Shown here piece after piece: positions 26,803 through 39,677 of a stretch of DNA of 39,677 nucleotides. A program made the translations under genes and the position numbers. The first letter of the stretch is position 1. Each line of letters starts with the position of its first letter. This DNA comes from a virus. The stretch lies in the IMG/VR virus record IMGVR_UViG_3300028536_000023, positions 1 through 39,677 of that record, one strand, 5' to 3'. The notes below the pieces were generated by a model. It was given only the letters and a program-made list of their open reading frames with translations. It had not been told where the DNA came from and did no database searches.

Positions 26803-26990
26803 CAATGCCACAGTATTTGGCGATGGCCGAGTACTGGGCAGAGTTTCCGCCGCCGTACAAGTTGTTGAGAATGATGGCAGAGGGGTTGTTTGGTAAGGCT
26901 GTTGGTACGGTAACAGCGGCGCCATTCAAACCCTCTACTCCTGAAGAACTGATGCAGGGACTTGGAGGCCCAGGAATGTATGGCAGATGA
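26392..26990 (+). CDS. Tail assembly chaperone GT (-1 frameshift product)
   Basis: A -1 slip at CCCAAAA (26697-26703) joins the first 104 residues of G to about 95 residues read from 26703, giving a roughly 199-residue GT fusion. The downstream frame begins SVGASDVEPINWGRIYSA and contains a T-domain-like region (WTWEQVDELTMPQYLAMAEY, then FPPPYKLL). This is the role played by lambda gpGT, which recruits tube subunits to the tape-measure scaffold. The T frame ends ten bases into the tape measure gene. The frameshift efficiency is unknown, but the two-frame organisation leaves little doubt. Confidence 0.85.
26697..26703 (+). other. -1 ribosomal frameshift slippery heptamer
   Basis: C CCA AAA lies exactly in the G reading frame (X XXY YYZ pattern), so tRNAs can re-pair to CCC AAA. 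The new frame leads without a stop to the T-domain. No strong downstream stem-loop or pseudoknot was worked out. Confidence 0.85.
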
Positions 26991-29250
26991 AGACGTCGTA
27001 GTTGGTATATCAGCTAACATCGCTGAGTTGTTGGCTGGGTTCAACCAAGCTGCGGAAACAATCACAGCCAGTCTAGCGAGCATTGAGTCGCGCGTTAACG
27101 ACGCTTCATCTGCTCTAGAAGAAAAAATGGCGCCTGCAGCGGAGCACGCTGCAGAAAGCTTACACCACATACATGAAGAAAGCGAAGGTGTGGGTGGTGC
27201 GCTCGAAGATCTAAAGGGCAAGTTTGAATCGGCCATGGAATTCACCGGCCTCGCGCTTGCCTACGAAGCGTTGGAAAAGCTTAAGGAAAAGTTGGATGAG
27301 CTGAGTGAGCGTGCCATTGAGTTTGAGCACCTGGGGGAAAGTCTCAGCATCGGCGCTGTTGCCATGCAGGGGCTGGAAGCTGCAGCCAACGAATCAGGTA
27401 TCAGCACCAGCAAACTCGAACGTGTTATGTTCACGCTCACCCAGCGTATGGAACAAGCGCGAGCTTCGGGTGGTGCAGCTGCAGAGAAGTTTAACGACCT
27501 CGGCATATCTAGTGACATGCTGGGTGATAGTTCGTTCACAGCTGTCAATGCAATGGAAGTGTTAGGTAGGGAAACCAACAGCAACGCAGAACTCATAGGG
27601 CTGTTGGGCGCACGCATGGCCATGATTGTGCCCATGATGCGTGAGATGGCTGAGAACCATAATTTGGCCGCAGAAGGTGCTGCCAAGGTAAATGCACTGT
27701 TGCCCAGCGAAATTGCTGAGATGACAGAGTACCACGCACTCATTGCCCAGCTCACTGAACAGTTTGAAAACTTTGCCAGTCGTTTGCTCACCAGTGTGAT
27801 ACCGGCAATCAAAGAATTCTCTGCCGACTTTAAGGAGCTGTTTACTGTTGGTGAAACCGGCCAGTTCGTATTTGCAGAAATAGTTTATGCCGTACAGGAA
27901 GTAGTGCTTACCGTCACGGAGTTGGCATACGCATTCAAGGGTGCTATCGATGTTATAATCAATGGATTGGCTGTCATCGTAAAGCCCATTGCGGGTGTTG
28001 CAGCGGCGATGGCAGCAATGGCGCGCGGCGAGTTCATGGATGCTTGGCACATCATGGCCGACACCGTCACCGACACCGGCAAGACGTGGGACAAGATATT
28101 CGATGACTTCGACAAGGATGTTGCAAAGGGCGAAGCTGCTGTAAATCGTATGAAGACGGGGCTCAGTGGTTTGGATGAAGTCCATCCCAACCTCAAGAAG
28201 GAAGAAGAACCCGAGCACAAGTCTGTTGGTCAGTATGACGACAGTGCGTACCTTGCCAACCAGAAGGAACGCATCAAGATACATGAGGGAATGATTGCTG
28301 AAGAACTCAAGGAAGATCAGGACTACCTAACACTGTCGATAAAGAATGCCAATGATCAAGCCAAGGGTGTGATGGATGCTCAGCTCGGTGCCATTAAGAT
28401 CCAAGAGGACATTGTTGGTCAGCGCGTCAAGACAGAAATGTTTGGCAACGTGCAGGAGCTGGGTGAATACAAACGACTGATTGATCAGAAGCTCGCTGCG
28501 CAGCTGGCGTACTACAATCAAGAAGAGGCAATGGCTCGAGCCGAAGGCAAGGACACTGAGAAGTACGAAGCCGACAAGATAAAGGCCACTCAGGCTTCGG
28601 CCGAAGCGCGCGTGAAGGCTGAGCAGAAAGCTACACAGGATATAAAGACAGCTTGGGACGGTGTGTTCAAGCCCATACAGGCGAGCTTTGCAGACAACAT
28701 AACAAAGATGATCGAAGGCACGGAAAGCTTCGGGCAGGCATGGCGCAACATTCTGGCCGGCATACTCGATGCCTTCATCAAGACGATAGCCAACCTCGTC
28801 GTTCAGTGGCTGTTAGGCATGTTGGAAAACATGGTGGTCAGCAAGACAACTGCCATGTCGCAGATCATGGCCAACGCAGGTGTTGCAGCCAGCGCAGCTG
28901 CAGCCAGCGTTGCGGCTATTCCATTTGTTGGTTGGGCGATGGCGCCGGAAGTGGCAGCCACCACGTTCGCAGAGACTGCAGCATATGCGACGAGTATCAG
29001 CGCCGCAGGAGGTGCAGACATCCCATCCGGTGTAAACCCAAAAGCCCAGTTGCATGAAAAGGAAATGGTGTTGCCAGCCAATATCGCAGACCCACTACGG
29101 CAGATGGTGTCCGGTGGCGGCAAGAATGGAAAGCATGTGTTGCAGGTTATGAACGGTGGTGACCATTACGTGATAACGAAAGCCAACCTGCACCAACACA
29201 TCAGTGACCTCAACACTCGATTTGCATTTGGCACCAAGGGGCCATTCTAG
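26980..29250 (+). CDS. Tape measure protein
   Basis: The start is the ATG with AGGA four bases before it; an earlier ATG at 26962 lacks a signal. The 756-residue protein has a helical, Glu/Ala/Leu-rich N-terminal third, hydrophobic segments around residues 298-350 (VYAVQEVVLTVTELAYAFKG; ..GLAVIVKPIAGVAAAM), charged coiled-coil regions (about 400-560) and another hydrophobic Ala-rich stretch near 600-680. The C-terminal segment GADIPSGVNPKAQLHEKEMV is typical of tape measure ends. Length sets tail length, and by the usual rule of about 1.5 angstroms per residue a tail near 110 nm is predicted. It is encoded right after the chaperones. Confidence 0.9.
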   Translation: MADEDVVVGISANIAELLAGFNQAAETITASLASIESRVNDASSALEEKMAPAAEHAAESLHHIHEESEGVGGALEDLKGKFESAMEFTGLALAYEALEKLKEKLDELSERAIEFEHLGESLSIGAVAMQGLEAAANESGISTSKLERVMFTLTQRMEQARASGGAAAEKFNDLGISSDMLGDSSFTAVNAMEVLGRETNSNAELIGLLGARMAMIVPMMREMAENHNLAAEGAAKVNALLPSEIAEMTEYHALIAQLTEQFENFASRLLTSVIPAIKEFSADFKELFTVGETGQFVFAEIVYAVQEVVLTVTELAYAFKGAIDVIINGLAVIVKPIAGVAAAMAAMARGEFMDAWHIMADTVTDTGKTWDKIFDDFDKDVAKGEAAVNRMKTGLSGLDEVHPNLKKEEEPEHKSVGQYDDSAYLANQKERIKIHEGMIAEELKEDQDYLTLSIKNANDQAKGVMDAQLGAIKIQEDIVGQRVKTEMFGNVQELGEYKRLIDQKLAAQLAYYNQEEAMARAEGKDTEKYEADKIKATQASAEARVKAEQKATQDIKTAWDGVFKPIQASFADNITKMIEGTESFGQAWRNILAGILDAFIKTIANLVVQWLLGMLENMVVSKTTAMSQIMANAGVAASAAAASVAAIPFVGWAMAPEVAATTFAETAAYATSISAAGGADIPSGVNPKAQLHEKEMVLPANIADPLRQMVSGGGKNGKHVLQVMNGGDHYVITKANLHQHISDLNTRFAFGTKGPF

Positions 29251-29852
29251 TGAGCAGTTTCATATTTCCATCGCTGCAAGGAGTAACTTGGCCGCAAGGC
29301 AATTCCATCAGTTACAAGACGCTGACTGACGAAGCGATGAGCAAACGATTGGCATCGTTGGCGCTGCAGACGTATCCAATACACACGTGGACACTCAGCT
29401 ATGACATACTCCGTGATGATGTCAATACTTCGGATATCCGTAGCATTGTTGGGCTCTTTAATGCTTGTCGTGGTCGCTATGATTCTTTTCTGTTTTCTGA
29501 TCCCACTTTTAATAGTGTGGTTGGTCAGGTGTTTGGGGTTGGCGATGGTCAGACAAAAGCATTCCAGTTGGTGGCTACGTTCAAAAATGTGAACGGGGCC
29601 GGTGGCCCAGACATCATACAGAATTTCAATGGTGCACCAACAGTCTTTAACGCTGGTGCATCTGTGCCGTACTTCCTGGGGCCAACAGGCATCGTCAACT
29701 TTACTACTGCTCCAGCAATTGGAAACTCGTTGACTTGGACAGGCGGGTTTTACTACAGATGCCATTTTCTGGCTGACTCATTACAGGTGCAACAGTTTAT
29801 GAATCAGTGGTGGAGCACACAGAACTTACAGTTTAGGAGCAGGCTGCTGTGA
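29250..29852 (+). CDS. DUF2460 tail protein, copy 1
   Basis: GTG start overlapping the tape measure stop (TAGTG). The 200-residue protein is a DUF2460 family member, the distal tail component located after the tape measure in phages and gene transfer agents. The core is LLRDDVN-like helix, then FNACRGRYDSFLFSDPTFNS, GVGDGQTKAFQL and the closing TWTGGFYYRCHF and FRSRLL. It is closely similar to the C-terminal domain of the protein at 34481. The normal DUF2460 length is kept. Confidence 0.87.
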   Translation: MSSFIFPSLQGVTWPQGNSISYKTLTDEAMSKRLASLALQTYPIHTWTLSYDILRDDVNTSDIRSIVGLFNACRGRYDSFLFSDPTFNSVVGQVFGVGDGQTKAFQLVATFKNVNGAGGPDIIQNFNGAPTVFNAGASVPYFLGPTGIVNFTTAPAIGNSLTWTGGFYYRCHFLADSLQVQQFMNQWWSTQNLQFRSRLL

Positions 29853-32485
29853 CAGCTTTCGGTAATCAAAACCAACTACTCGTGCCGACCCCGCGCGGTT
29901 ATATTGATTCAACTTTCCCAGCTGGCAACGATGGATCTGGCGTTGTTCCGGTGTGGGCACTCACTGGATTCCCGAGCCTAACAGTGTTGTCCGTTGGCAC
30001 GGCATTTTCAATTGACCTGTCAGATTTTTTTACGGACCCAGGCTCGCCAACTTCAGAGCTGGGGTTCTATGATGTTAGTGGTCAGTCAGCGCGTGCTGCA
30101 GGGTGGTCCATTTCCGGCACGACGCTTTCCAACAGCAATGGCTTGGCCACGAGCGGCGTATTCCAACTCGTAGCGGTGCGCAACGGCATCAGTGTGCTGA
30201 GTTCACCGATATCGTTCGCCATCAATGCTACAGCCACCACAGACACCATTGCACCCACTGTGCCCACTGGTGTGGTGGCCACGCAAGGTTCGGTAGCAAA
30301 CACCATCACGCTTTCGTTTGATCAACCGTGTGACATCGCGCCCAATGGTGCGGCTGCGAGTGGTGTAGCACACGTCGATGTGTTGGTGAATAGTACGGTT
30401 TCGGCGCCCAGCCCGATAGCCACCGCAGCCAATTCCATGCCGTTCCCAGGCAACACCAACATCGGCAATGCCACGATACAACCGACGATTCTGCAAAACG
30501 CGAAACAGTGGCTGATGACGGCTGGTGGTTCTGGTATCATTGCTACGACAGCTGAGCAGATTCTTGCGTCGCCGTTTGGACAGTACACTGGCGCGCAGAC
30601 ATTCATCGCCAAGTTGGATGCGTATGGTGCAGCTGGTGCACTGAATGCGCTGTCTGGCATCTGCATACATGAAACCAACGTGTCTGGCGGTCGGTTCGTT
30701 GCTGTAGCGCTGCGCCCTCTAGGTTCCGGCACACCTGGGCTCGTCATTGTTACGCGCGCCACCCCAGGCGCCGCGAGCGTGCAACAGTCTGTAACTGCTC
30801 TGGACATCAATGGACAGACAATAACCGCAGCGTATGTACGCCTGTCGCGGTCTTCAAACCTGAGCAGTGTGTTGGTTTCGTACTCGTTGGACCAGAGCCA
30901 GTGGATAGACATCTCCACACAGACTGTCGCAATGGCCAGCAGCGTGTTCTATAACTTGATGCTGACGTCCGCAGCGGCCGGAGTAGCCGTCACATCCAGT
31001 GTTGAAGAGGTGGCGATAACCAGTGCACCACGACTGACGACCACCATATCATCCAGCGTGCAGGTAGCGTTGCAGTTGCGCGCGGTTGATAACGCTGGCA
31101 ACACATCAGGACTCAGCACTTCGATTGTTGGTATTCCAAAGCCGCCGGTGACAGTACCTCCTGGATCGCCACGCATCCACCCAGGCCATCGGTTCTGGTT
31201 AGACAATCAATTCTGGCCAGGGAATCAGAGTGCTGCGCTAAACGCCGTGCTACCTATCGTTAGCAATCTGACAAACAAGTTCAACGGCGTCGGTGTGCTG
31301 TTCACGTGGGCCAATGTCTCTGATCCTGCGCTCACTAACGGCAAGCAAACATTCAACCTTTTCCGTTCAAACTTGACAGACATTCTTGGTCGACTACGTG
31401 CCATAACAACCAAGAAGATATATCTAACCGTGAAAATGTTTACTCAAGCGTTCTATCAAACGTCATCTGGCACCACAACGTCTGTTTCAGGCAACACGTT
31501 CACAGACACGACTGCAGCCTTTGGAACGGGTTGGACACAGTGCAATATCGGCGGGCACACACATACCGTCGTTTCTAGCACGGCAACGACAGTAACGCTC
31601 GCAGATGCTGTTGGTGCAGGCGCAGGCGCCAGCTACTTACTCGGCAAAGCGAAGGTTAATGACACGAGCTTCTGGCCAGCATGGCTAGTTGCCAAGAGCC
31701 CAGTATGGGTGGACGCATTCTTTCAGACTAACACCAACTCGCGCGGTCAGTTGGACTACGATAATGTAGCTGTCTGGACTGCCATGACAGAAATGTTTCA
31801 GGGTATGGCCCAGATTATCAACGAGCTTGACACAGACAATCGCATCGACATTGTTGCAACCATGGATGAATCCATTGCAGCAAGCTCGGACATCAACAAT
31901 GTTGGTATCATAAACGCAGCCAATTACAACACCAAATTCACGCAGCTGCACTTAGATGTGAAGGCTGCCTTTCCAACACGTACCATCTGGTGTCCGTTGT
32001 CGTATCTTCCAGGTACTGAAGTGCCTGCACAGATCAGTACGTTGCAAACTCTACAGGCTGCGTATCCAACGGGGTTCGGCTATGGCGGTCCAGACACTCC
32101 ATTGTTTGGTGTCCACGGTGATCCAACTGAATGGTTCACTACGTTCCTTGACATTATTACCGGTATTACTGGTACGTTGGGTGATGTGCGTGACAACTAC
32201 CTGCGCATAGGCAATACGGAAGGTCCTGGCCTGGGGGCTGGCACTGGGCAGAACTGTCCGCCGGCATTAGGTACAGCACAGAATATCTTCAACGATGTCA
32301 TGACTCGTCAAAATATTGCTGCCACTGGTGGTCGTTCCGCGCATTCTGGTATGGGGTGCTCTGTCATGCATTGGGTGTACGCCACGCGGTTCTGCCTCCA
32401 ATACACCGACGAAATTACGGTAGTGAATGCCAACAATGGTTCGTTCACGCCGTTACCTCCAGGTAGCTGGGATACTTCGGCCTAA
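29849..32485 (+). CDS. Large tail protein with glycosidase-like barrel and split FN3
   Basis: GTGA start overlap; 878 residues. Residues 1-130 are an Ig-like tail-attachment part. The FN3-like domain starts APTVPTGVVATQGS (135-148) and appears to resume at VQVALQLRAVDNAGNTSGLS (404-423), with a lectin/DUF1349-like domain between about 185 and 392. Residues about 443-860 resemble a (beta/alpha)8 glycoside hydrolase: HRFWLDNQFW, the GVGVLFTWANV strand, IYLTVKM and DIVATMDES, whose Glu may be catalytic. A small module (about 537-600) interrupts the barrel. It is probably a tail-tip depolymerase or glycan-binding protein. No certain catalytic residue assignment is possible. Confidence 0.72.
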   Translation: MTAFGNQNQLLVPTPRGYIDSTFPAGNDGSGVVPVWALTGFPSLTVLSVGTAFSIDLSDFFTDPGSPTSELGFYDVSGQSARAAGWSISGTTLSNSNGLATSGVFQLVAVRNGISVLSSPISFAINATATTDTIAPTVPTGVVATQGSVANTITLSFDQPCDIAPNGAAASGVAHVDVLVNSTVSAPSPIATAANSMPFPGNTNIGNATIQPTILQNAKQWLMTAGGSGIIATTAEQILASPFGQYTGAQTFIAKLDAYGAAGALNALSGICIHETNVSGGRFVAVALRPLGSGTPGLVIVTRATPGAASVQQSVTALDINGQTITAAYVRLSRSSNLSSVLVSYSLDQSQWIDISTQTVAMASSVFYNLMLTSAAAGVAVTSSVEEVAITSAPRLTTTISSSVQVALQLRAVDNAGNTSGLSTSIVGIPKPPVTVPPGSPRIHPGHRFWLDNQFWPGNQSAALNAVLPIVSNLTNKFNGVGVLFTWANVSDPALTNGKQTFNLFRSNLTDILGRLRAITTKKIYLTVKMFTQAFYQTSSGTTTSVSGNTFTDTTAAFGTGWTQCNIGGHTHTVVSSTATTVTLADAVGAGAGASYLLGKAKVNDTSFWPAWLVAKSPVWVDAFFQTNTNSRGQLDYDNVAVWTAMTEMFQGMAQIINELDTDNRIDIVATMDESIAASSDINNVGIINAANYNTKFTQLHLDVKAAFPTRTIWCPLSYLPGTEVPAQISTLQTLQAAYPTGFGYGGPDTPLFGVHGDPTEWFTTFLDIITGITGTLGDVRDNYLRIGNTEGPGLGAGTGQNCPPALGTAQNIFNDVMTRQNIAATGGRSAHSGMGCSVMHWVYATRFCLQYTDEITVVNANNGSFTPLPPGSWDTSA

Positions 32486-32501
32486 CACGAGAATATGGTC
32501 T

Positions 32502-33710
32502 ATGTCACAAACTATCGCAGGAAGTAACCACTACACAGGTGCAGTACCCTTCACAGGGACGCCCTACACCTTCAGTGTCGTCATTGCCGCCCCAGGCGGG
32601 CAGGCACGCAAGTACATCTCTGTAGGCAACTCCGGCGATTCTAACAATGCGGTTGTCGTTGGCACGGACGTCACTGCTGCAGCAACCAATAGACCATCGT
32701 TGTTCACGACGGCCACGTCCGGCAACAATCAGGTTACTGCTGGCGTTGCCATGGACATTACTGGCAATTACAATTTCATTTGCGCAGTAGCCGCGAGCAG
32801 CTCCAGTCGCGCGGTGTATCTGAATGGCTCCAACAAAGGAGCCAGTGGTTCAGTCGCTGCATTTCCAACAGGTATCGATGCCTTCGTCATATCTGGTCGC
32901 GTAACAGATTTCACCAGTGGCATTGCTGGATCGATCGCGCACATGGCGCTGTGGCTGCGCGCGCTATCAGATGCCGAAGTGGCCTACCTGGGTACGGGTG
33001 GCAATCCACGTGCTATCAAAGGCTGCGTCAGCTACTGGAAGTTCAACGGTACGGACTTGACAACCGTACCTGATGATATTGGAACCAACGATCTAACAGT
33101 TGTCGGCACTGTGACTGCTGGCAGCACCAATCCCAACTTTGAAACGTTCATGACGGGCACTGCGCTCGCCAACCTGAATTTGACACAAGGTACGGCATTT
33201 GCCGGTGTCAACTCAGGGTTCGACAATGTCACGTCACCGTTCACTGTTTCATTGTGTCAGCTCAACGCACCAACGACGCCAACGGCAACCACCCAGGCAC
33301 TAACCAACGTACGGGAAGTTCCCGTTGCAGCGGTCACCGGTCTGGTGGCGGACAACTACATCAAGATCGCAGGTAATGCCAACCCTGCAAGAATTCTGAC
33401 GGTCAATGCAACTGCACTCACTGTACTGGTTGATAAAGATCAAACATTCACCAGTGGCGCAGCCATCAGCTACTACACTGTAAACCCGCTCACGTTGTCA
33501 GGGCTCAACACTGCAACACTGGCAGGCACACCGGCCACGTCGGGCACGTTCAATCTGTGCTTCCTGCGCGCCAAGTGCAATGCGGATACGACTATCGTAG
33601 CAGATACCAACATCATCAACATAACAATTGCAGCCAGTGGTGGCGGAGGCGGGTCTGCAGGCGTCATGCTCGTTGCCGGCTCGTACTGTGGCGGATTTTC
33701 TGGAGGCTAA
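32502..33710 (+). CDS. LamG-like lectin plus Ig-like tail protein
   Basis: The start at 32502 avoids a long overlap of the upstream gene; an ATG at 32427 lies in its coding sequence. In the 402-residue product, residues about 1-215 look like a concanavalin/LamG-type domain (YTFSVVIAAPGGQARKYISV; AHMALWLRALSDAEVAYLG; SYWKFNGTDL). The C-terminal part has an Ig-like region with SGLNTATLAGTPATSGTFNL and a Gly-rich end. The set is typical of virion surface and tail-fibre proteins that bind glycans. Its location among tail-tip genes suits receptor recognition. Confidence 0.7.
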   Translation: MSQTIAGSNHYTGAVPFTGTPYTFSVVIAAPGGQARKYISVGNSGDSNNAVVVGTDVTAAATNRPSLFTTATSGNNQVTAGVAMDITGNYNFICAVAASSSSRAVYLNGSNKGASGSVAAFPTGIDAFVISGRVTDFTSGIAGSIAHMALWLRALSDAEVAYLGTGGNPRAIKGCVSYWKFNGTDLTTVPDDIGTNDLTVVGTVTAGSTNPNFETFMTGTALANLNLTQGTAFAGVNSGFDNVTSPFTVSLCQLNAPTTPTATTQALTNVREVPVAAVTGLVADNYIKIAGNANPARILTVNATALTVLVDKDQTFTSGAAISYYTVNPLTLSGLNTATLAGTPATSGTFNLCFLRAKCNADTTIVADTNIINITIAASGGGGGSAGVMLVAGSYCGGFSGG

Positions 33711-33713
33711 CTC

Positions 33714-34481
33714 GTGTCAATACTTCAGCGTTTAAACGGTTCGCAAAACCATTGCATCCCAATCTGGTTGGCGGACAGTTCCTCCACCACCGGCAACGGC
33801 AAGACTGGTCTTTCCGGTGCGTCAGCGGGACTCATCATCGCCGTGCGCGCAGATGGCCAAGCTGCGCCCACTGTGTACACTACTGCGGCCGGGACCATTG
33901 ATACCATTGCAACGATCGGAACATATGTCGCACCAACAGCTGGCAAGTGTCGGTTCAAGGAGGTGGACGCTACCAACGAGCCTGGGTCGTACGAGTTGCA
34001 GTTGCTCAACACTTTGTTCAGTACACCAGTCAGCGCCTCATGGGTGAAGATAACGATCCAGGCGCCTGCAAGCAATGTCCCGGTGCAACAGTTTCTGTAT
34101 GACCTACAGCCGCAAGTGGACGTGCGTGCGTTCGGTGGTCAGGCGGGCCACTTCCAGAATGGTCTGCCCAGCGTGGATGTGGACAGCATCAACCAAGGCA
34201 CCACCACAGTGGATACGTTGTCTGCAGAGTTGGATGCTCGTAAAATCGGCACCATCACCAACACTGGCATCGTGGCGACGAACAGCGTGTTTGAATGTTC
34301 CGATATAACAGATGCATCGGCAAATGTGTATCAGAATGCTGGTGTGCTCGTCATATCTGGCGTCAACATTCGGCGCCGCAGCTATGTCATCTCGGATCAA
34401 GTTGGCACTGCTGGCCACAGGTTCACGATTGCTGCGCTGCCTGTCGCATTCGGTAGTGGCGACAAAATAGTGCTTCTGTAA
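33714..34481 (+). CDS. Conserved phage tail/structural protein, 255 residues
   Basis: GTG start three bases after the preceding stop, with GGAGG upstream. The segment TIATIGTYVAPTAGKCRFKE and the following VDATNEPGSYELQL closely resemble a repeated motif in tail or upper-baseplate proteins of many phages. The second half has Asp/Thr/Ala-rich stretches and two to three Cys residues. Its stop overlaps the next start in TAATG. It is probably part of the tail tip or fibre base. I know no specific enzymatic function. Confidence 0.65.
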   Translation: MSILQRLNGSQNHCIPIWLADSSSTTGNGKTGLSGASAGLIIAVRADGQAAPTVYTTAAGTIDTIATIGTYVAPTAGKCRFKEVDATNEPGSYELQLLNTLFSTPVSASWVKITIQAPASNVPVQQFLYDLQPQVDVRAFGGQAGHFQNGLPSVDVDSINQGTTTVDTLSAELDARKIGTITNTGIVATNSVFECSDITDASANVYQNAGVLVISGVNIRRRSYVISDQVGTAGHRFTIAALPVAFGSGDKIVLL

Positions 34482-35917
34482 TGTTGCACGGAATCAACCA
34501 TGGGATCATAGGTCCCCCGCGCGGGTTAGCAGGGCGAAGTTTGTTGGGGCGACAAACGATCATGGTGAATGGTACGCCAGCCGTTGGTGCTGATTCCTTC
34601 ATCACGCGTATGTCGCCCAACTTGGCCCAAGGCGATGTGATGATCTTGAGCATTGCCATTTCACCGAGCAATGCCATGCTAGGCGTGCGGCCGAATGGCA
34701 CGTACTACGCCAACGTGAACGGATCATTGGTGCCGCAAACATTGCAGGCTGATGCCTACAGCAGGACGCTCGGCCTGTATGGTGAAGGCACGTTGGTTAT
34801 CAACGATCGTGCGCCGGTGCCAACCAACGGTCACGACTTTCTCGGCAACACAACATTCGCACTAGGCGCACCGGTCAGCCTACAGCTGCAAGCCACTGAT
34901 CCAGATAACAATCCGATCAAGTGGACCATTCAATCTGGCGTATTCCCGCCTGGGTTGTCGTTGGGCTTGAATACTGGATTGGTTACCGGCACACCGACGA
35001 CTCTCGGCTCGTTTGGTTTTGTCATCCGTGTTACAGATCCGTTTGGTGCGTTCACTGACGTGGCAGACTCAGCCATAGTTTCCAGCGTGTTGCCCAACTT
35101 CGTTGGTCAGCAACTGAGCGTCGCCACCCTGGCAGTGCAGGCATTGGGACTAACAGTGTTTTCCAGCCAGACTGGCTCCGGGTTGACACTCAACCAGATC
35201 ATCACACAGTCGCCACCAGCCAACACGCCGATCACCAGTGGCACTACTGTAGTCACGTTCATTGTGTCGGATGGTAGTGGATTCGTCGGCTTGACCACAC
35301 TGTTTCCCAATAACATACTCGGTCTCACGTGGAACGGTACGCGCGAAACAGATTTCACGTCCACTTACCAAGAGGCCATCACAGGCAAGGTTAGTTCAGC
35401 TACATACACCAAGTATCCAACAACCATGTGGGATCTAAACTATGAGTTGCTGAACCAAGCCGCGGCACAGGATGATCTGAAGAAGATCATGGGACTGTTC
35501 AACCAACAGCAGGCACAGGCCATCAACTTCCTGTATCAGGATCCAGCGTTCAACTCCGTGGCCAACGAAGTGTTCTTCATTGGCGATGGTATCAAAAAGC
35601 AGGCACAGCTGACCGCTCAGTATCGTGTCCCTGGTGGCCCAGGCTTAGCTGAGAAGATACAGGCATTGAATCCAACCGTGCTGTTTGTCATGAAAGACTT
35701 GACTGCTGGCATCACACTGGTGAATGGTGTGGACTACTTCGTCGGTGCGACTGGCAACATAACTTTCCCCGTGGCTCCGGCATTGAACCACCAGATTGCG
35801 TGGACCGGTAGTTTCTATTACATCTGCAAGTTCGTAACAGACAACATTGATCCAGAACAATTCATGCAGAACTTCTGGCAGATGCAGTCCATCAGTTTTA
35901 GGAGTGTTATCATATGA
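34481..35917 (+). CDS. He_PIG/PASTA protein fused to DUF2460, copy 2
   Basis: This 478-residue protein combines an N-terminal region of unknown fold (1-120), a putative Ig domain of the He_PIG type (about 122-197: FPPGLSLGLNTGLVTGTPTT), a PASTA-like domain (about 203-265: LPNFVGQQLSVATLAVQALG then SPPANTPITSG) and a full DUF2460 domain (about 273-478). The DUF2460 part aligns along its length with the 29250 protein (WDLNYELL, FLYQDPAFNS, WTGSFYYICKF, ISFRSV). PASTA normally binds peptidoglycan or muropeptides. Fusion to a tail component suggests a second distal-tail-like protein with wall-binding ability. Confidence 0.82.
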   Translation: MLHGINHGIIGPPRGLAGRSLLGRQTIMVNGTPAVGADSFITRMSPNLAQGDVMILSIAISPSNAMLGVRPNGTYYANVNGSLVPQTLQADAYSRTLGLYGEGTLVINDRAPVPTNGHDFLGNTTFALGAPVSLQLQATDPDNNPIKWTIQSGVFPPGLSLGLNTGLVTGTPTTLGSFGFVIRVTDPFGAFTDVADSAIVSSVLPNFVGQQLSVATLAVQALGLTVFSSQTGSGLTLNQIITQSPPANTPITSGTTVVTFIVSDGSGFVGLTTLFPNNILGLTWNGTRETDFTSTYQEAITGKVSSATYTKYPTTMWDLNYELLNQAAAQDDLKKIMGLFNQQQAQAINFLYQDPAFNSVANEVFFIGDGIKKQAQLTAQYRVPGGPGLAEKIQALNPTVLFVMKDLTAGITLVNGVDYFVGATGNITFPVAPALNHQIAWTGSFYYICKFVTDNIDPEQFMQNFWQMQSISFRSVII

Positions 35918-36921
35918 AGGTAGCTTCCCCCGCTGCTTTCGCAATCATGACTGCCGGGCAGTCGTGTCGCATCGATCTATACCAACTCACGTTGGCCGGT
36001 GGCTTGGCGTCGTTCTATTTCACCAGCCACCAGGAGGCAGTCACCTACAACGGCAATCTGTATAACACCGGGCTCGTCATAACACGTGGCGCATGCAAAC
36101 AGAAGGTTGGCATCGCCGTGCAGTCGATGGATCTGACAATGAGCCCACAGACGGACAACTCTACTGGAGTGCCGTTGGTAGCTGGGCTGCCATTCCTTGC
36201 CGCAGCCCAGGCGAAAGTATTCGATAGCGCGCACGTGTTGTTCAGCAAAGGGTTTTTCAATAGCTTCGACGACCGCAGTCCCGGGTTTATACCGTGGGTT
36301 CAAGCGCGTATAGACACTGTGAAGGTGGACAGACTCAGCGCGAAGTTTACTTTGATGGATGACACCATCATTCTAAACAACGCGGGACCACCAAACATCA
36401 TACAGCCAGGATGTGGGCACACACTGTTTGATGCAGGCTGCACACTGAATGCTGCCAACTTTGTGAAGTCCGGCACTGTGATCTCTGGCAGCAACAACAC
36501 TGGCGCACTGACCACATTGACTCAGCCGGAAGATTACTTCACACTCGGCAGACTAACATTCACATCGGGCGCCAATGCAACCACGCCATCGACCACATAC
36601 TACATCCGGCAATACAAACATGCGTTTGGTACACTCATCCCAATCAGGCCATTCCCCAACGTACCACAGGCAGGGGACACGTTCATAATTTTACCTGGAT
36701 GCCCGCACACTCGCGCCGCATGTATCAACACTGACGAAGCAATCGGCCCAGCGTTCAACAATGGCCCACACTTCGACGGTGAGCCGTTCGTGCCAGCCCC
36801 GGAGACGCTGTACGATGGTGGCGTGCCTACGGGTGGCAATGCCAACGGCAATGGCCTGGGAACCAGTGTCGGCAGTCCGTTCAGCAGTGGCCTGGGTCCG
36901 AAGAATACGTACAAGGCATGA
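35914..36921 (+). CDS. DUF2163 tail-tip protein
   Basis: ATGA overlap at the start. The 335-residue protein matches the DUF2163/BR0599 family in tail-tip modules: an N-terminal beta region (SCRIDLYQLTLAGGLASFYF), ITRGACKQKVGI, then the C-terminal Cys motif GCGHTLFDAGC and GCPHTRAACI. These Cys residues could form a metal site or disulfides. The protein is the hub component next to the NlpC/P60 enzyme. The C-terminal Gly/Asn/Pro tail is longer than the minimum. The gene order DUF2460-DUF2163-NlpC/P60-tip protein is standard. Confidence 0.88.
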   Translation: MKVASPAAFAIMTAGQSCRIDLYQLTLAGGLASFYFTSHQEAVTYNGNLYNTGLVITRGACKQKVGIAVQSMDLTMSPQTDNSTGVPLVAGLPFLAAAQAKVFDSAHVLFSKGFFNSFDDRSPGFIPWVQARIDTVKVDRLSAKFTLMDDTIILNNAGPPNIIQPGCGHTLFDAGCTLNAANFVKSGTVISGSNNTGALTTLTQPEDYFTLGRLTFTSGANATTPSTTYYIRQYKHAFGTLIPIRPFPNVPQAGDTFIILPGCPHTRAACINTDEAIGPAFNNGPHFDGEPFVPAPETLYDGGVPTGGNANGNGLGTSVGSPFSSGLGPKNTYKA

Positions 36922-37349
36922 TCATGGATGCACAAACAAGAATCAGAGTCATTGATGAAGCCTTGAGCTGGCTGCACACACCATACGTGGACTGCGGTGA
37001 CATCAAAGGCCCGAAGGGTGCGGTCGACTGTGCAATGCTATTGGTTCGTGTATATGCCGATCTGGGGCTCATACCCAAGGACTACGACCCACGACCATAC
37101 AAGCCGGATTGGCATCTACACAACAATGAAGAGTTGTACATGGCTGGGCTGGAGAGGTTTTCCCACCCAGTGATGACAGCACGGTCTGGTGACATCGCCA
37201 TGTTCAAATTTGGTAAACATGCCAGCCATGGCAGTATCATCATATCGGACGACTTGATGATACATGCCAACAAGACGGCAAGGCAGGTGGAAACTGTGGA
37301 ACGGCGAGCATATATGGATCGCCTTGTTGGTTATTGGAGTCTCACGTAA
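36918..37349 (+). CDS. NlpC/P60-family tail peptidase
   Basis: The 143-residue protein starts in an ATGA overlap with DUF2163. It has the core VDCAMLLVRVY with catalytic Cys38, and HGSIII with His104, plus a later MIHA that may supply a third polar residue. NlpC/P60 tail enzymes cleave peptidoglycan during DNA entry. It is a tail component by position between DUF2163 and the tip protein; a lysis role is less likely. The length is normal for the tail class. Confidence 0.88.
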   Translation: MIMDAQTRIRVIDEALSWLHTPYVDCGDIKGPKGAVDCAMLLVRVYADLGLIPKDYDPRPYKPDWHLHNNEELYMAGLERFSHPVMTARSGDIAMFKFGKHASHGSIIISDDLMIHANKTARQVETVERRAYMDRLVGYWSLT

Positions 37350-39677
37350 TGGGTGGTCTGTTCGGCAAGAAGACTCAGTCCAGCACGCCGATTCGCTTCA
37401 ATGCGATGCAGATCAATCAGTCGGCGTATGGCAACGTCATCCCATTGTTGTATGGCACGGACCGTTTGCCGATCACACTCATCGACTACCAGGACTTCAA
37501 GTCGAAGGCAACGACCAGCCAGAGTTCCGGCGGCAAGGGTGGTGGCAGCCCCACGACCAGCGGATACACCTACAGCGCTAGTTGGGTAGGGCTGCTGGCC
37601 AATGGCCCCATCGGGGGGATCCTACAGGCGTACAGCGACCAGACACAGTGCACCCTGGCCACTGCACCGGGCGGACCGTTGGTGCTATTCAATGGTACTG
37701 GCGGGCAGGCTGCATGGACCTACATGGTCAACAACCACCCGACACATGCGCTGTCGTATGATCACCGTGCCTACATCGCCGCAGCCAACTACTCGTTGGG
37801 TAGCAGCGCTGCCATGCCCAACCTAACCTTTGAAGTGCAAGGGCTCAAGCTGTGGAACGGCGGTCCCGACTCGCACCCGCGCGACATTGCGGTGGACTAC
37901 TGCACGGATCCCAACCACAGTGTTGGATTCCCGTATCTAGACATGCCAGGGTTTGACGCCCCCAACGGATGGCGCGACTACTGCACGGCAATGGGGTTCC
38001 TGGTTTCGCCATCCGAAACAACTCAGCGCAGTGCAGCCAGTTTCCTCAGTGAATTATTCCAGGAAACTAACAGCAATTGCGTCTGGTCTGCAGGTGTTGG
38101 ATTGCGTGTGGTGCCGTATGGTGACCAGGTTGTCAGCGGTAATGGTGTTACATACACTCCGAACTTGGATCCAGAATTCACGTTCATCGATGATGACTAC
38201 TGTCCGCCCAACGGCACTCCACCGGTTCAGATAAGCATCTCACCGGCCAGCCAGACGTACAATGTTTGGAACGTTGAGTTTCTAGATCGCACCAACCAAT
38301 ACAACACGGCGATCGAGACTTACCGTGATGAGCAGGACATTGCCGTCAACGGTGCGCGCATAGCGCCAACGATCAATTTGCACGCCATCAAGATACGTGC
38401 CATCGCTGCAGTGGTTGCCGCCTTGGCTGCGCAACGCAACCTGTACATTCGCTCCACCTACACGATGACGGTCCGCATGGACTACTCGTTGTTGGAGCCC
38501 ATGGATCTGATTGCGTTTAGCGACAGCGCAACCGGCATCGTCAATAAGCTGGCGCGCATAACAGAGACCACAGACAATCCGGACGATACGTTCACCATCG
38601 TTTGTGAAGAAATGTTGGTTGGCCCAGCGCACGCACCTATCTACAACACGCAGTTCGCGGCAGGCTATGCGGCCAACTATGGCGCAGACCCTGGCTCGGT
38701 GGACGTACCGTACATCTTCACCATCCCGCCACTACTGGCCCGTGGCAGCACCGGATACGAGTTGGGGATTGCTGTTGGTGGCCTGAGCGGCTTGTGGGGT
38801 GGCTGCACTGTGTATGGTAGCTTGGACAACTCCAGCTACGAAGTCGTTGCGATAGTCGAGACTTCCGCACGCTATGGCAGATTGACCGGTCCAGTAACGT
38901 CAGGATCTGACCCGGACACTGTTAGTTTTGTGAACGTGCAGGTGAACTCCACTGCGCAGGATTCAATGATCAGCGTCACCAGGGCAGACGCCGACAACCT
39001 ACGCACGCTGATGGTGGTCGATGGCGAAGTGATGGCGTATCAGATATCCACTCCGCTGGGCAACGACTCCTTCAAGCTGAACTATCTGCGCCGTGGCCAA
39101 TACAACAGTCCGATCACACAGCACCCTACCAACAGCCAGTTCACGATGTTGGATGGCAACGTGGCGCGCGTGGAGTTTGATCCCGGCCTAGTTGGTCAGC
39201 CGGTATGGTTCAAGTTTGTCAGCTACAACATCTTCGGTGGAGGCGTGCAGGACATCTCCACACTGCCCGCATACCAAGCCATCTTCCAGGGACAGAATAG
39301 CGGTCAACTGTTGGCCCCAGGTGCTACGCCACTGATCGCACGCAACTTCTGCGTACAGAATGGCAGCAAGATCTATAAGCAGGCTAACGGTACATTTCAA
39401 TGGGACAGCGATTGCTACAGTCTGGATGCATTCGCCGCTGGCTGCACCATGAAGTTCCAGACATGCGTGTTGGGTGGCCCCAGTGGCGGGTTTGATCTAA
39501 TGATGGGGCTCAACAGCGATCCACTGTCTGATCAATCATACACGTCGTTGGACCATGCGTGGCACATAACGTCCAGCGATGCACGTGCGTACATTTACGA
39601 AAACGGTGTGTTCGTAATGGCGACTACCACCTACACGACAGCCACCGTGTTTGAGATTCGCTATGATGGCAAGTTTG
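37349..39677 (+). CDS. Tail-tip/host-specificity protein, truncated by the window end
   Basis: Starts at the ATG of a TAATG overlap and stays open for 776 codons to the right end. The opening is a tip-attachment pattern: MGGLFGKKTQSSTPIRFNAM, then NVIPLLYGTDRLPITLID and a Gly/Ser-rich loop. Later come a hub domain with DYSLLEPMDL and DGEVMAYQI, YLRRGQY and a late beta-sandwich region. It matches the lambda gpJ-like/phage-tail_3 hub that binds NlpC/P60 and carries receptor-binding domains. The visible part is probably over half of the full protein; no stop is present. Confidence 0.85.
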   Translation, partial: MGGLFGKKTQSSTPIRFNAMQINQSAYGNVIPLLYGTDRLPITLIDYQDFKSKATTSQSSGGKGGGSPTTSGYTYSASWVGLLANGPIGGILQAYSDQTQCTLATAPGGPLVLFNGTGGQAAWTYMVNNHPTHALSYDHRAYIAAANYSLGSSAAMPNLTFEVQGLKLWNGGPDSHPRDIAVDYCTDPNHSVGFPYLDMPGFDAPNGWRDYCTAMGFLVSPSETTQRSAASFLSELFQETNSNCVWSAGVGLRVVPYGDQVVSGNGVTYTPNLDPEFTFIDDDYCPPNGTPPVQISISPASQTYNVWNVEFLDRTNQYNTAIETYRDEQDIAVNGARIAPTINLHAIKIRAIAAVVAALAAQRNLYIRSTYTMTVRMDYSLLEPMDLIAFSDSATGIVNKLARITETTDNPDDTFTIVCEEMLVGPAHAPIYNTQFAAGYAANYGADPGSVDVPYIFTIPPLLARGSTGYELGIAVGGLSGLWGGCTVYGSLDNSSYEVVAIVETSARYGRLTGPVTSGSDPDTVSFVNVQVNSTAQDSMISVTRADADNLRTLMVVDGEVMAYQISTPLGNDSFKLNYLRRGQYNSPITQHPTNSQFTMLDGNVARVEFDPGLVGQPVWFKFVSYNIFGGGVQDISTLPAYQAIFQGQNSGQLLAPGATPLIARNFCVQNGSKIYKQANGTFQWDSDCYSLDAFAAGCTMKFQTCVLGGPSGGFDLMMGLNSDPLSDQSYTSLDHAWHITSSDARAYIYENGVFVMATTTYTTATVFEIRYDGKF

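Follow-up and report, generated by a model that had tools for sequence, protein, structure and literature searches.

The window, meaning the whole stretch of DNA analysed, is the 39,677-base IMG/VR virus record IMGVR_UViG_3300028536_000023; the phage is known from metagenomes only. Its tail gene row contains two genes of the DUF2460 distal tail (Dit) family, of which copy A follows the tape measure gene and copy B precedes the hub gene, as follows.

26962..29250, + strand: 762-aa tape measure protein, counted from the listed TTG start (PHROG 2854 'tail length tape measure protein', E 3.9e-30)
29250..29852, + strand: copy A, a 200-aa distal tail (Dit) protein with DUF2460 as its only domain (Pfam DUF2460, 1.3e-24)
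29849..32485, + strand: 878-aa probable receptor-binding/depolymerase protein with a conserved N-terminal anchor and an exchanged C-terminal domain (block identities, five relatives)
32427..33710, + strand: LamG/concanavalin-type protein, 427 aa from the listed ATG (Pfam Laminin_G_3, 4.2e-8)
33714..34481, + strand: 255-aa protein whose N-terminal ~130 residues form a domain present in many other viral contigs
34481..34804, + strand: copy B residues 1-108, N-terminal motif and small beta domain (conserved in five relatives)
34805..35086, + strand: copy B residues 109-202, Ig domain, He_PIG/cadherin-like (Pfam 8e-8; SraP fold, Z 12.1)
35084..35281, + strand: copy B residues 202-267, PASTA domain (Pfam 1e-7; PknB PASTA fold, Z 11.2)
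35291..35917, + strand: copy B residues 271-478, DUF2460 distal tail domain (Pfam 1.8e-18; R4C Dit fold, Z 14.9)
35914..36921, + strand: baseplate hub, phiJL001_Gp84_N/DUF2163 and BR0599 (Pfam 1.3e-21 and 2.7e-12)
36918..37349, + strand: NlpC/P60 tail peptidase (Pfam 1.3e-6)
37334..39677, + strand: gpJ/megatron, Rcc01698-like, running off the window (Pfam Phage-tail_3, 2e-22; Rcc01698_C, 1.7e-10)

Across positions 28001-38000, the GC skew is about +0.08 until the cassette formed by the 878-aa, LamG and 255-aa genes begins; there it turns slightly negative, and it remains negative as far as the hub/gpJ region extends. Downstream of the corresponding genes in the related contig L006, there is a weak match to an Rz-like spanin, which fits, together with the RcGTA-type baseplate, a Gram-negative host without proving one.

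Copy B is an open frame (34481-35917) of 478 aa, in which Pfam recognizes DUF2460 at residues 280-476, He_PIG at 122-190 and PASTA at 203-263, with the E-values listed above and all above the curated cut-offs. The DUF2460 profile scores 87.3 bits for copy A and 67.2 bits for copy B against a cut-off of 30.4, and BLASTP aligns the two with 36% identity and 56% positives over 207 aa (E 7e-43), covering the whole length of the short copy, which bears out the claim of a preliminary description that DUF2460 is duplicated within one genome. The PASTA score of copy B is 32.2 against a cut-off of 23.2 bits, and the domain is matched in all five B orthologs scanned, four of which lie above the cut-off and one (L087, 19.9) below. 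By phmmer, copy A matches the R4C Dit (8gtc_G, 8e-6) and RcGTA Rcc01695 (6tba, 0.004). A search of copy B against PDB sequences gave no significant match (best E 0.037), and a structural comparison was therefore needed. Phage records returned matches at the level of DUF2460 only. In the AlphaFold2 model of copy B, built from 25 sequences, the Ig and PASTA domains are mostly at pLDDT 76-94, while residues 1-108 are of low confidence, poor for 1-60. The predicted fold of residues 271-478 corresponds to the R4C Dit 8gtc_G (rmsd 4.2 A over 185 residues), that of the Ig domain to the SraP domain 4m03, and that of the PASTA domain to the PknB PASTA 5e12 (rmsd 1.5 A over 65 residues). Both copies thus belong to the DUF2460 family of RcGTA/R4C-type distal tail proteins. 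The He_PIG-type Ig and PASTA-like domains that had been proposed for the second copy are likewise upheld, the latter by the domain search and by the presence of a PASTA fold in the predicted structure. Residues 1-108 are kept in the relatives, in which residues 1-30 are 50-80% identical to those of the window, and the protein starts with the motif MLHGI..G..GPPRG.AGRSLLG (residues 1-24). Duplication and fusion are therefore real and conserved, as confirmed by sequence and predicted fold.

Regarding the relatives, searches of viral contigs recovered full-length B orthologs, 43-64% identical, in L006, L007/L019/L096, L087/L094 and L088/L095, with L092 being the same as L006 over copy B. In addition, the B protein of the 6.5-kb contig 3300012927_000225 (L003) is identical (100%) to that of the window, and this contig is probably the same virus. 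No B ortholog was found in the genome contigs searched, and a broader search of genome contigs yielded only two single-copy relatives, in a Nitrosospira sp. and a Formivibrio MAG. In a maximum-likelihood tree built on 51 DUF2460 domains, the A copies, five in number, group together (98/96) and the five B copies make up a clade of their own (100/99); the gene order of this A/B clade is the same in all: TMP-A-rbp-LamG-255-B-hub-NlpC-gpJ. The duplication is old, as is shown by the split into supported A and B clades and by the synteny common to the five related viral contigs. These represent only about four well-separated lineages, as L087 and L088 are close. Copy A is closer than copy B to the single-copy relatives in the window and L006, but not in L007, L087 and L088; these distances give no clean answer as to which copy is ancestral. 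Two other pairs are mutual nearest neighbours in the tree. One (L024, 5781-10618; 100/97) is devoid of Ig or PASTA domains and flanks three genes of 230, 480 and 460 aa, for which Pfam and PHROGs gave no family match; a profile comparison of two of them with the window cassette revealed no relationship. The other (L028, 9935-11223; 100/99) consists of two DUF2460 genes in direct tandem. These pairs look like duplications separate from that of the main clade, and gene conversion could alternatively unite them in the tree.

Single-copy DUF2460 loci have the order TMP-DUF2460-hub. In 38 of them that extend 6.5 kb or more to each side, some being near-duplicate contigs, and also in shorter ones, the DUF2460 gene is generally followed directly by the hub, NlpC/P60 and gpJ genes. 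In the A/B clade three genes and copy B are inserted at this point, between copy A and the hub. Of the DUF2460-bearing loci retrieved, only those of the A/B clade match the profiles for the B arm and for the three cassette genes. The N-terminal ~430 residues of the 878-aa protein are conserved throughout the relatives. From residue 420 on, the protein is 46-68% identical to that of L096 and 7-32% identical to those of L006, L087 and L088, even though L006 is the nearest relative of the window outside this C-terminus, which marks the exchange of a binding or enzymatic tip. The model of this C-terminus resembles GH35/GH5 TIM barrels; as its mean pLDDT of 52.7 denotes low confidence, the glycosidase-like match serves as a lead only. 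The LamG protein is conserved in five of five relatives, which align from residue 26. The domain at the start of the 255-aa protein (~130 residues) is shared with the viral contigs L106-L142, where the proteins carrying it range from ~130 to >1200 aa. Copy B has no comparable variable part, its N-part, Ig, PASTA and DUF2460 regions being about equally conserved, so that it looks like a scaffold instead of a specificity determinant.

Three further virus records (L106, L155 and L156) contain the unit of N-domain, Ig and PASTA without DUF2460, and an rbpN homolog adjoins it in the first two. L106 encodes a free-standing 275-aa homolog of this unit (BLASTP 1e-10), and a 620-aa frame of L155 has the unit after a LamG-like region; both records contain a P22-type portal and no DUF2460. 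In L156 (2404-12278), the unit lies inside two neighbouring adhesin-like frames of 1841 and 1448 aa, the first of which has additional Ig-like repeats. The first ~24 residues of copy B are missing from the L106 homolog and may belong with the Dit fusion. Given its occurrence without DUF2460 in other phage types, the arm behaves as a mobile adhesin module, and PASTA is here a component of that arm and not a Gram-positive signature. The earlier view that PASTA is unusual outside Gram-positive bacteria is weak in any case, since the family matches 9 of 14 control genomes, including Bacteroides, Thermus, Deinobacterium, Thermotoga and two archaea. Other DUF2460 proteins are also decorated. One (L032:9989-10927) has a C-terminal collagen-like GYSGYSG repeat (Pfam Collagen, 1.7e-8) in a frame open at the contig end. 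In three others (L037:9971-11200, L042:9977-11194 and L091:10001-11743), an insert of ~160-315 residues, with no significant Pfam match, splits the second half of DUF2460, which is another mode of Dit decoration.

The second copy is always encoded with swappable surface-binding genes, which suggests that the ring protein, the one closing off the tail tube, was duplicated to mount extra host-binding equipment. The best explanation, to which we assign a probability of roughly 0.6, is that copy B is a second Dit-type subunit turned adaptor that docks an accessory receptor-binding cassette. Observed, and the basis of this reading, are the domains, the duplication, a synteny common to the relatives, the linkage to the cassette, the exchanged tip and the occurrence of the arm elsewhere without DUF2460. 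Copy A would form the ordinary Dit ring from tail tube to hub, and in copy B a duplicated Dit domain would have received its N-terminal arm from a mobile phage adhesin module, copy B being acquired or retained jointly with the three cassette genes. The DUF2460 part of copy B would enter the tail-tip axis as a second ring beside copy A and the hub, and its arms would point outward and hold the cassette proteins, whose task would be to bind surface sugars, and perhaps to cleave them, ahead of the opening of the envelope by hub and megatron. The B domain could also replace A subunits within one ring rather than add a ring, a stacked second ring and a heteromeric ring being equally possible. The small number of well-separated lineages and the poor modelling of residues 1-108 were weighed against the adaptor reading. 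If it is true, the phage gains host-binding equipment while its conserved tail tip is left undisturbed, by a route in which a ring protein is duplicated, fused to a mobile adhesin arm and loaded with a swappable cassette.

Several alternatives were considered. PASTA binds cell-wall material in Gram-positive kinases, and by analogy copy B itself might be the receptor-binding protein, its PASTA and Ig domains contacting peptidoglycan or a surface sugar of the host envelope directly. Dit insertions of other phages do bear sugar-binding modules (PMC7291167), but copy B lacks the receptor-type diversification seen in the exchanged 878-aa tip, and its single PASTA, which also occurs mid-way in giant adhesins, is spacer-like, making this role improbable. 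Alternatively, A and B may alternate in one A3B3 hexamer, so that two genes instead of two conformations fix the step from six-fold to three-fold symmetry at the hub. Odd and even Dit subunits of RcGTA differ in conformation to meet the hub and megatron (PMC7296036), a long loop of the R4C Dit copes with the same mismatch (PMC10276861), and the separate second pair in L024 fits a recurrent use of paired subunits. One gene nevertheless suffices in single-copy relatives, and phage p2 has two stacked Dit rings from one gene (PMC7472080), so that such a hexamer is possible though unlikely. A combined form, in which the alternating ring is a genetically encoded six-to-three-fold adaptor and copy B alone bears three arms for the swappable cassette, is doubtful. 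The presence of two homologous genes in one genome would also agree with copy B being a relic or an alternative tail-tip subunit used in some virions only. However, both copies are intact and in fixed order in five contigs, within one gene row that has a single hub and a single gpJ/megatron downstream, and the alternative tail-tip raised in the preliminary description is accordingly disfavoured as very improbable. The adaptor reading remains preferred.

Among known systems, the closest are RcGTA and R4C, in which a Dit hexamer links the tube to a three-fold hub (PMC7296036; PMC10276861) and, in RcGTA, the N-terminus, long loops and C-terminus of Dit contact the hub and megatron (PMC7296036). 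RcGTA Rcc01695 and the R4C Dit 8gtc_G have family, fold and neighbours (tape measure, hub, NlpC/P60, megatron) in common with the window. However, they are encoded by one DUF2460 gene, whereas the window has two with three genes between them, the second with a 270-residue N-terminal arm. In the literature searched, mostly non-subscription papers, no direct precedent was found for two Dit genes or for PASTA in tail proteins. The lactococcal phage p2 carries two stacked Dit hexamers at one tail tip (PMC7472080), both from one gene, in contrast to the two genes of the window. The PASTA domains of PknB/PrkC agree with that of copy B in fold and Pfam match, but copy B has one PASTA in a phage structural protein with no kinase or penicillin-binding domain. 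As duplication seems to have occurred separately more than once (main clade, L024 and L028), paired or mixed tail rings become a testable question. In phages of lactic acid bacteria, decorated 'evolved Dit' proteins contain sugar-binding modules in the galectin domain (PMC7291167), and copy B is alike in that its Dit domain also bears added adhesion-type domains; a Pfam search of copy B found Ig and PASTA, which lie N-terminally, and no carbohydrate-binding module. In an 'evolved Dit' the galectin domain of the sole Dit takes up the insertion, whereas the window has an N-terminal fusion on a duplicate within an RcGTA-type baseplate, which would extend an idea documented for phages of Gram-positive hosts to RcGTA-type baseplates.
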